A DNA stretch of 64,000 nucleotides from positions 1-64,000 of the forward strand of contig NZ_JAAGNX010000001.1 of NCBI RefSeq assembly GCF_010500615.1. The letters run 5' to 3'. This document shows positions 8,346 to 10,768 of the stretch, piece by piece. A program made the position numbers and the translations under genes. Source of the stretch: Oceanipulchritudo coccoides. Its GTDB lineage: Bacteria > Verrucomicrobiota > Verrucomicrobiia > Opitutales > Oceanipulchritudinaceae. Position 1 is the stretch's first letter. Every line of letters begins with the position of its first letter. The notes beneath the pieces were generated by a model. That model was not told where the DNA came from. It did no database searches and was given only the letters and a program-made list of their open reading frames with translations.

Positions 8346-9440
8346 ATGATTCTGGAGTCTCTTGAAGTATCCCTTGCCGAGCGGTCTTATCCGATCCACA
8401 TCGGTCGCGACCTTGGCACGTCCCTGCGGCGGTGTGTCGCTGCTGACCTGGCTGACGGACGTAAGCTTGCTGTGATCACTGACGCCAGCGTGGCGCGTGA
8501 GCAGGCCGCCTTTGTTGAACATGCCTTCGGCGACCTGCCGGTCCTGGTTCTTCCGTCAGGCGAATCGACCAAGGCCTTTCACCATCTTGAGCATTGCGCC
8601 AATTTTCTCGCTGAAGTCGGGCTCGATCGGGGTGGTCGCATCTTCGCCCTTGGGGGTGGCGTCATAGGGGACCTTGCCGGCTTCGCCGCCGCCTCGTTTT
8701 ACCGCGGAATCGGTTTTTACCAGATTCCGACTACGCTCCTCGCCATGGTCGACAGCTCTGTCGGTGGCAAGACGGGTATCAATTTGACTGCTGGCAAGAA
8801 CCTCGTCGGGGCATTTCACCAGCCACTCTGCGTCTTTGCTGATTTGGATACCCTCCTTTCTCTTCCCAAGCGCGAATTCAACGCCGGGATGGCCGAGGTG
8901 ATCAAACACGGGCTTCTGGCCGATGAAGAGCTTTTCACCCTTCTCGAATCCGGCCCGCGGCTGGAGGCCTCCAGCGAGGATCTCCCCGCCATCATCCGGC
9001 GGAATTGCGGCATCAAGGCGGGTGTCGTGAGTGCGGATGAACGTGAGGAATCCGGTCAGGGTGGCCGCGCCCTCCTCAACCTTGGACACACCTTTGGTCA
9101 CGCCATTGAGGCAGTTGCCGGATACGGGACCTACTTGCACGGTGAGGCAATCGCCATCGGTTTGGTCCTTGCCTGCCAGTTTTCTGAACGGCTTGGCAAT
9201 ATTGATTCAGCCACTGTTGATCGGGCTGTCCCCCTTCTGCAGAAATACGATTTGCCAGTCCGCCTGCGGAAGCCCCTGCCGCTCGATTCCCTGCTCGCTG
9301 CCGTCCGCAAGGATAAGAAGTCCCGGGCCGGCAGCCTCCGCTTTGTCGCTTTGGAGAAAATCGGCAAGGCCGTCACCGTCGTAGGAATTGAGCCGGGTCT
9401 GCTCGAGGAGCTCTTTGTTGGCGTTGGAGCGGCACAATAG
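8346..9440 (+). CDS. aroB: 3-dehydroquinate synthase
   Basis: Second step of the shikimate pathway: converts DAHP to 3-dehydroquinate using NAD and a divalent metal. The 364-residue length is standard. Motifs seen are LPSGE-x-TK (about 59), the NAD-binding ALGGGVIGDLAGFAAA (about 100), PTTLLAMVDSSVGGKTGIN (about 128) and the metal-site HGLLAD and LNLGHTFGHAIE (about 244). It begins two bases after the ftsY stop, so it sits at the end of the ribH-nusB-ftsY-aroB run. No terminator with a T tract directly follows. Confidence 0.96.
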   Translation: MILESLEVSLAERSYPIHIGRDLGTSLRRCVAADLADGRKLAVITDASVAREQAAFVEHAFGDLPVLVLPSGESTKAFHHLEHCANFLAEVGLDRGGRIFALGGGVIGDLAGFAAASFYRGIGFYQIPTTLLAMVDSSVGGKTGINLTAGKNLVGAFHQPLCVFADLDTLLSLPKREFNAGMAEVIKHGLLADEELFTLLESGPRLEASSEDLPAIIRRNCGIKAGVVSADEREESGQGGRALLNLGHTFGHAIEAVAGYGTYLHGEAIAIGLVLACQFSERLGNIDSATVDRAVPLLQKYDLPVRLRKPLPLDSLLAAVRKDKKSRAGSLRFVALEKIGKAVTVVGIEPGLLEELFVGVGAAQ

Positions 9441-9659
9441 CAGGTTTGCCCCCAAATAATCGGGACCGGACCTTTTGTCCGTAACCGCCTGCCGTATAGA
9501 TCTGGGTTTTAAAATAATTGTAAAAACGTCCCCATGCGCTTGACGAATTGCCCGATCTGGAGCAATTTTCCCCCAGTTCTTTAAGAATCGTTGTTCATCA
9601 CTTTCCGCTTTCTAACGCGGTGGCTCCGCTCGGAGTCATCTCAAACTGAAAACATAACC
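9441..9659. other. Intergenic leader region before a tiny ORF
   Basis: About 220 bases with no convincing gene. It contains short stems, for example CGGAC-CTTTT-GTCCG near 9470 and CTCCG-CT-CGGAG near 9625-9636. A TTGACG at about 9540 could be a -35 box, but no good -10 box stands 17 bases downstream. Together with the ORF at 9660 and the terminator at 9824, the interval reads like an independent short transcript. Confidence 0.35.
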
Positions 9660-9800
9660 ATGAACAACACGACTAAAAACACACCTAAGGGAGTTAAACC
9701 TCGCCGGGCTCGCACGCTCGCTCCGCTTTCGGAGAAGCTGGCAACCGTTCGCTCATACCCGAGCTTCGGATCCTCGGCACTGACAGGTATCCTCCGATAG
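9660..9800 (+). CDS. Possible 46-residue basic small protein
   Basis: An ATG-initiated frame of 46 codons between aroB and a strong terminator. The product is basic in its first half (KNTPKGVKPRRARTL) and ends SFGSSALTGILR, with no membrane segment or cysteine. No good ribosome-binding site precedes the ATG. The DNA also contains self-complementary stretches such as CTCCGCTTTCGGAG, so a structured noncoding RNA is a real alternative. I know no matching family. Being the only frame between two non-coding stretches and directly before the terminator is what supports it. Confidence 0.4.
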   Translation: MNNTTKNTPKGVKPRRARTLAPLSEKLATVRSYPSFGSSALTGILR

Positions 9801-9823
9801 GTGCTTCAATAGAAAATAACATG

Positions 9824-9855
9824 GGGCGGGAATCCGAAAGGGTTCCCGCCCTTTT
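9824..9855 (+). terminator. Strong intrinsic terminator
   Basis: GGGCGGGAA (9824-9832) pairs perfectly with TTCCCGCCC (9843-9851) around a 10-base loop, followed by TTTT. It ends rightward transcription of the aroB/small-ORF region just before the convergent gene at 9887. Confidence 0.9.
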
Positions 9856-9886
9856 CAGTTTCTGAATTGTCCGCCAACAGCCAAAC

Positions 9887-10768
9887 TCATCCAATTCCCC
9901 TGAGCAGGTGCCGGATCATGCTGGCTGCCTGATCCCCATAGCCACCTCCGAAAATATTGAAGTGGTTGAGGACATGGTAGAGCTGGTACAGGTCCCGCCG
10001 CCGCTCATATCCGGGATCGATGGGCCAGACAGATCCGTAGCCGTCATAAAAGGGTTTTGGAAATCCGCCAAAGAGCTCGGTCATGGCGAGGTCCGTCTCC
10101 CGGTCCCCGAAGTAGCTTGCGGGATCAAATACAACGGGTGTCCCGTCTTCAAGAAAACCGGCGTTGCCCGCCCAGGGATCGCCATGCAGGAGCGACGCCG
10201 TCGGGGAGTACGTATCAAAAAATAAATGTAGTTGCCCGATCAATACGTCCGCATCACTCAACCGGAGACCCTTCTCGCGAGCCCATTGGACCTGTGGCTG
10301 CAGACGGCATTCCGCATAGAACCCTATCCAGTCATTTTTCCATGTGTTGATTTGCCGGGTCGATCCGATCCAATTGTCCTCCTCCCATCCGAAATTTGCC
10401 TGCTGTACATGATGAAGGCGGGCAAGCTCTTTGCCCATGTTTTCCCAGCTTCCAGGATGCGCCCTGCCAATCGGAAGAAATTCGAGAACGAGGGCTGTCA
10501 TGTCATTGGAGCTGCAAACGGCAACAGGTTCCGGCACGCGGATGGTCTTTGTTTTCCCTATGGCTCGTAAAGCTGCTGCCTCCGCCTCGAAGGAGGAACG
10601 GAATGAGGGCCTGTTCTGCTTGATGAAAAAACGCCGTCCATCCGTCCCGGTGAGACACTGGGCATTATGAATACAGCCGCCGCCGAGCGAACTTGTGCCC
10701 TTGATGCGAAAGTCCGAGCCGGTGGCTTTCAAGATGGCTGCCTCGATTTCCTTGTTCATTGCCTCCAT
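9887..10768 (-). CDS. Fructosamine kinase-family protein
   Basis: A 293-residue member of the fructosamine-3-kinase / ketosamine kinase family (aminoglycoside-phosphotransferase fold), which phosphorylates sugar-lysine adducts to start deglycation. Visible are the nucleotide-loop start SSLGGGCIHNAQ (about 26), FIKQN with the conserved lysine (about 48), EFLP hinge (about 96), the catalytic LLHGDPWAGNAG (about 193) and the metal-binding FDPASYFGDRETDLAMTELFGGF (split about 213-235). ATGs at 10768 and 10759 are both possible. It is divergent from the nuclease-like gene at 10820. Confidence 0.9.
   Translation of the reverse strand: MEAMNKEIEAAILKATGSDFRIKGTSSLGGGCIHNAQCLTGTDGRRFFIKQNRPSFRSSFEAEAAALRAIGKTKTIRVPEPVAVCSSNDMTALVLEFLPIGRAHPGSWENMGKELARLHHVQQANFGWEEDNWIGSTRQINTWKNDWIGFYAECRLQPQVQWAREKGLRLSDADVLIGQLHLFFDTYSPTASLLHGDPWAGNAGFLEDGTPVVFDPASYFGDRETDLAMTELFGGFPKPFYDGYGSVWPIDPGYERRRDLYQLYHVLNHFNIFGGGYGDQAASMIRHLLRGIG

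Follow-up and report, generated by a model that had tools for sequence, protein, structure and literature searches.

A putative boxA-led gene for a small, basic and fast-evolving protein in a family of Opitutales

The locus and its small gene

The window analysed here is a stretch of 64,000 nucleotides from Oceanipulchritudo coccoides, whose genome comprises 3.52 Mb in 52 contigs. Its subject is the interval 9441-9886, which is single-copy in that genome and carries an open reading frame (ORF) for a small basic protein. The interval is bordered on the left by aroB (8346-9440, TIGR01357) and on the right by a convergent fructosamine-kinase gene (PF03881) with its end at 9887. The gene order on the 5' side is ribH, nusB, ftsY, aroB, nusB (TIGR01951) being two genes upstream of aroB. 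An earlier note on this DNA had proposed that the product made here is a new small protein or else a regulatory RNA. Codon evidence upholds the protein, as do homologues that share its reading frame. A separate regulatory RNA gained no support from the analyses, and a purely regulatory RNA is disfavoured. What survives of the RNA side of the proposal is the set of conserved non-coding parts of the gene, namely the boxA-like element and leader hairpin at the 5' end and the motif and terminator at the 3' end.

The 46-codon ORF (9660-9800, plus strand, MNNTTKNTPKGVKPRRARTLAPLSEKLATVRSYPSFGSSALTGILR) encodes a protein with nine Lys/Arg and one Asp/Glu, the basic frame that had been pointed out earlier. 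When the 17 genomes of the family were searched with the protein, G003, G009 and G002 matched strongly, besides the genome itself (G000), and these homologues keep the frame. The ratio of non-synonymous to synonymous change (dN/dS) is 0.09-0.35 in the six pairs among these four genomes, and third positions vary most. Three genomes of one genus (G005, G012, G015) encode an identical protein from genes that differ pairwise by 5, 7 and 8 silent changes. Synonymous rates also exceed non-synonymous rates between G006 and G013 and in the pairs among G004, G005 and G008. That the frame is a translated gene is well supported by these codon statistics. The ORF is short and has no database family, as would be the case for a spurious frame in intergenic DNA that contains a terminator; selection at the codon level and the recurrence of 15 units of the same build refute that explanation, and its probability is negligible.

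The 46-residue, strongly basic product belongs to a so far undescribed protein family. Its members have 41-50 residues with 8-12 Lys/Arg and 1-3 Asp/Glu, and often consist of an Asn/Thr-rich N-terminus, an Arg/Lys-rich middle and an aromatic or hydrophobic C-terminus. A Pfam and NCBIfam scan of 12 members returned a single Pfam match below the cut-off (E 0.079), and a sequence search of the PDB with the window protein gave no match. NCBIfam TIGR04137, which we take to be a small basic protein linked to ribosomal RNA (rRNA) in Verrucomicrobia and Chlamydiae and presumably present in the library, was likewise not matched by any of the 12 members. Structure prediction gave one helix, at residues 23-32, with a mean predicted local distance difference test score (pLDDT) of 59.2 and a predicted template modelling score (pTM) of 0.15.

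A recurring unit with a diverging protein

The gene is part of a unit that opens with a TTGAC element and AGTTCTTT; a leader hairpin and an A-rich start then lead into the basic ORF (41-50 codons), after which come AATAGAAAATAAC and a GC-rich terminator. Fifteen such units occur in 13 of the 17 genomes of this family of Opitutales (Verrucomicrobiota), in several different gene neighbourhoods. The units of O. coccoides, G003 and G002 adjoin the fructosamine-kinase gene; that of G009 sits between a KDO-transferase gene and a glucosaminidase gene; those of G010 and G013 immediately precede response-regulator genes with 62% identity to each other.

The first four homologues share TTGAC, AGTTCTTT, a AATAGAAAATAAC-like stretch after the ORF and the GC-rich terminator, and a divergent member in G007 was found by a search for the 5' pattern. 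A protein profile had four strong matches among 273 genomes of the order, and a five-row profile had five among 372, plus much noise. The G010 member was a row at noise level (E 0.019) and is real by its flanks. A wide spread by protein profile was dropped, as there were few strong matches beyond noise.

R1, a covariance model built from the 3' end only, was trained on six rows and run over the 372 genomes of the order; at E <= 0.02 it found 22 genomes, 13 of the 17 in the family and 9 of the 355 elsewhere in the order. Its absences are weak evidence, because only 15 candidates were scored per genome. All 26 R1 rows were inspected, and one extra tandem match (G006c, the second R1 match) was added to the unit count. 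Two rows in the family are not the small gene, and both follow TonB_C genes. Among the ten rows outside the family, G045b (L117:1603-1782, from a more distant family) contains a 59-codon basic ORF with a similar 3' end and without GTTCTTT. This ORF may be a distant relative of the small gene, and it was left out of the 15 units.

The proteins are hardly alignable between genera; the flanking RNA signals persist. In comparisons of profiles, the group of the window protein matched the G007/G010 group with 73% probability, the G004/G005/G008 group with 5% and the G006/G013 group with 0.4%; of the five pairs of subgroups compared, four had values between 0.4 and 11%. Tandem pairs of units occur in G006 and G013 (L102, L103/L116), and their proteins have strongly diverged, as after duplication. 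The units of G010 and G013 are probably orthologous, since both directly precede the similar response-regulator genes, and the small protein has probably changed far faster there than its neighbour. We infer from their architecture, not from protein similarity, that all 15 units form one family. Protein homology search fails past a few genera, and the 5' and 3' RNA signals find the gene throughout the family; such genes are therefore probably missed routinely.

Signals at the two ends of the transcript

The promoter and boxA-like signal (9540-9582) and the 3' motif go beyond the features listed in the earlier note. The signal begins with a -35-like TTGACG (9540-9545, plus strand), and TTGAC occurs at a similar distance from the downstream core in 11 of the 15 units, the remaining four having TTGATT, TTGCTT, TTGCAA and TTGCTT. 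A weak -10 candidate, CAATTT (9563-9568, plus strand), was picked out by eye. The boxA-like AGTTCTTT (9575-9582, plus strand) is probably at or near the transcript start. Its core, GTTCTTT, is found 39-105 bases before the ATG in all 15 units (69-105 in 14 of them, 39 in G007). The G010 and G007 units were chosen partly by the 5' signal and give it no independent support; all nine units that R1 found without that signal, three of them near-identical congeners, have GTTCTTT 69-105 bases before the ATG. In the one rRNA leader that was read, that of the organism's own 16S gene, a hairpin is followed by CTGTTCTTTGAAAT at the place expected for an rRNA boxA, and the GTTCTTT core is identical in this site and in all 15 units.

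The pattern TTGAC-N26..36-GTTCTTT has 10 matches in the O. coccoides genome and 5 in a reversed control. The small gene, MISL RNA and transfer-messenger RNA (tmRNA) account for three of the matches, and the other seven fall within ORFs of 275-833 codons. In this DNA, an ORF of at least 100 codons across a match is only a weak sign of coding, because several true units overlap such frames. With a stricter pattern, the 29 matches in the whole family comprised nine small genes, seven MISL RNAs, one tmRNA and 12 others without an Rfam RNA at the match.

MISL RNA (RF03079) is present in eight of the 17 genomes (L060, L061, L062, L056, L041, L047-L049), in seven of which a AGTTCTTTGAAAG element follows the TTGAC promoter element at the 5' end. 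The tmRNA gene (RF00023; L123:1501-1943, from C1:1384166 onward in the O. coccoides genome), with the tag GENEYALAA, has a TTGAC-spaced AGTTCTTT leader. MISL RNA and tmRNA of the family have the same 5' element as the small gene, but they are structured non-coding RNAs, and the AATAGAAAATAAC motif is absent from the 3' ends of MISL RNA. A partnership with MISL RNA was rejected: the small gene occurs in 13 and MISL RNA in eight of the 17 genomes, six having the gene without MISL RNA and G001 MISL RNA without the gene.

Between the 5' element and the ORF lies a leader hairpin (9621-9638, plus strand) that holds the first of two CTCCG...CGGAG stretches (9624-9635). That the stretch occurs twice had been remarked correctly, the second copy being inside the ORF (9721-9734, plus strand); only the leader copy has counterparts in relatives. 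A hairpin of differing sequence lies just upstream of the ATG in 13 of 14 folded leaders, and its energy is below the shuffle mean in those 13, with p<0.05 individually in 3 of the 14. The bases before the ATG, ctgaaaacataacc, contain no Shine-Dalgarno sequence, in agreement with the earlier remark that a good ribosome site is lacking, and in the units generally the start region is A-rich and shows no consistent Shine-Dalgarno sequence.

The ORF is followed in the 3' untranslated region by the AATAGAAAATAAC motif (9808-9820, plus strand), which was aligned in six units and is what R1 detects in the family genomes. Next comes an intrinsic terminator hairpin with a T run (9824-9855, plus strand). 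The terminator had been called perfect; it is real, and the word is slightly too strong, as the arms (9824-9835 and 9840-9851, followed by TTTT) are 92% complementary. A terminator scan is by itself unremarkable (5 sites found, 3.1 expected). The earlier note proposed a look among relatives for codon-like as opposed to compensatory changes; besides the synonymous bias in the ORF, relatives show compensatory changes on both sides of the terminator helix in 6 of 11 pairs. The alignment used for the pairs (A5) includes one match on the opposite strand of this terminator as well as duplicated rows, and the structure on which the pairs are counted is the one to which it was fitted.

The 3' motif is not private to the small gene. 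Small TonB_C-domain genes in G003 and G006 (L114:1576-1986, L115:1097-1468) end in a motif of the AATAGAAAATAAC type and a terminator. The motif also ends short ORF-less RNA candidates in G045, G075, G143 and G160 (L107, L104, L108, L110), which belong to two other families of the order. Each candidate starts some 60-100 bases before the R1 match and runs as far as the match does, and is built of a hairpin such as CTCTCTTAGGAGAG, GGGGTAA, AATAAAGTAGAAAATAA and a GC hairpin with a purine-rich loop. The three candidate loci scanned had no Rfam match.

It can be asked whether the transcript has a dual function, in which the protein is made and the main role is in the RNA, the 3' motif and terminator being a regulatory module that is perhaps bound by an Hfq-like chaperone. 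The persistence of the RNA signals beyond protein similarity would fit this explanation, as would the motif after the TonB_C genes and in the ORF-less candidates of four distant genomes. However, selection clearly constrains the amino acids that the ORF encodes, and the hairpin is mostly followed by U runs of 3-5 bases, which is short for Hfq-type RNAs. Pairing of a 5' AGUUCUUU with the 3' motif was also tried and rejected, as pairs from the same unit did not outperform swapped pairs (p 0.27, 13 units). We regard a dual function as unlikely.

The proposed boxA-led gene and its rivals

Action of boxA outside rRNA has been described in other bacteria. In Legionella, the boxA of an array of clustered regularly interspaced short palindromic repeats (CRISPR) is GTTCTTTAAAA, and it is reported to have raised transcription of the array and precursor CRISPR RNA about tenfold (PMC7862264). 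A second paper places E. coli suhB under the control of Nus factors through boxA; its authors state that their survey excluded non-coding RNAs and boxA copies more than 50 nt upstream (PMC5725501). The units described here resemble these rRNA, suhB and CRISPR leaders in their GTTCTTT core, which is the same as in the organism's own rRNA site and in the Legionella site, and in the presence of nusB in the genome. They differ in that the core lies where transcription is expected to start, or close by, and precedes a basic ORF of 41-50 codons, and in that Nus binding is putative.

Taken together, the conserved signals and the codon statistics make it probable that the unit is a self-contained, boxA-led gene of the stable-RNA class for a small, basic, fast-evolving protein. 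Transcription would begin at the TTGAC-type promoter, and GUUCUUU in the RNA would act as boxA, to which NusB and S10 would probably bind, so that the polymerase runs on to the terminator. Transcript levels would be growth-dependent and rRNA-like. The leader hairpin and the A-rich stretch might stand in for a Shine-Dalgarno sequence by exposing the start codon, translation would yield the basic peptide of 41-50 residues, and transcription would terminate at the strong hairpin. The rRNA-style start signal suggests that the protein is made together with the translation machinery, and the protein may bind the ribosome or another RNA.

Several observations weigh against this proposal. No unit was detected in 4 of the 17 family genomes. 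The 29 family-wide matches of the stricter pattern are a modest excess by count over the 19 of the reversed control; the weight of the pattern comes from where the matches fall, not from their number. The core has only seven bases and those after it vary (AAGA, TATA, ATTA, TCAC, CCGC and others). In the organism's rRNA leader it appears by eye to lie further in, whereas in the units it is at or near the expected start. The protein fold is not predicted with confidence, and such rapid divergence would not be expected of a ribosomal protein that binds tightly.

Because the core is short and the following bases are variable, AGTTCTTT could instead reflect a start-site preference as part of a strong promoter context, the gene being an ordinary constitutive orphan without Nus control. 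The position of the element at the expected start site is consistent with this, and so is the variable 3' flank. Where a full-length boxA would have an A-rich 3' part, several units have AAGA, AAAG or AATA and the rest have TCAC, CGAG, CCGC or others. On the other hand, the seven-base core is invariant in all 15 units and common to the rRNA leader, where by eye it is further downstream, and it is kept in G004 and G008 despite a distance of 37-38 between TTGAC and the core, against about 30 elsewhere. A start-site context is rather unlikely. Repression of the suhB kind, in which Nus factors on the leader would hold translation down and the protein would be made when Nus is scarce, finds a parallel in the leader boxA ahead of the ORF; in 14 of the 15 units, though, the core is at 69-105 nt too far from the ATG for simple occlusion (G007 being the exception), and this mechanism appears quite improbable.

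Under the boxA-led reading, a role of the protein with the ribosome or another RNA is possible and is put forward tentatively, because the peptide is basic, has no confident fold and would be made in the class of rRNA and tmRNA. The proteins bTHX, Sra and bL38 are lineage-specific, small, basic and ribosome-associated. The family resembles them in size, in charge and in its presumed stable-RNA-like expression, but differs in having no NCBIfam or Pfam match and in its far faster divergence, and its association with ribosomes is putative. More speculatively, and with considerable doubt, a boxA regulon might join rRNA, tmRNA, MISL RNA and one mRNA, whose product would be a lineage-specific, fast-evolving component of translation made in step with ribosomes, the RNA signals being kept while the protein sequence is replaced. 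If boxA drives the gene, Nus control here would extend to tmRNA as well as to a large non-coding RNA and a small basic protein. This would give a handle on the functions of MISL RNA and of the small protein, both of which may belong to ribosome supply. Judged by titles and the beginnings of abstracts, and with most subscription journals outside the scope, the literature searched included no paper on the small gene, on boxA before tmRNA or MISL RNA, or on boxA in Verrucomicrobiota.

Some features of the interval may be added. Rfam gave no match at the gathering score across the whole 64-kb window, which rules out an Rfam RNA inside the interval, and none at the small-ORF units within the loci of relatives that were scanned. 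An antisense ORF of 66 codons (9694-9894) was discarded, its frame by eye not being kept on the antisense strand of G002 or G009. The second CTCCG...CGGAG stretch is outside the conserved architecture; by eye it has no counterpart in G009 or G002 and a GC-rich one in G003. The fold of a 353-base RNA is stable beyond chance (z -3.53), and much of this value is owed to the terminator.
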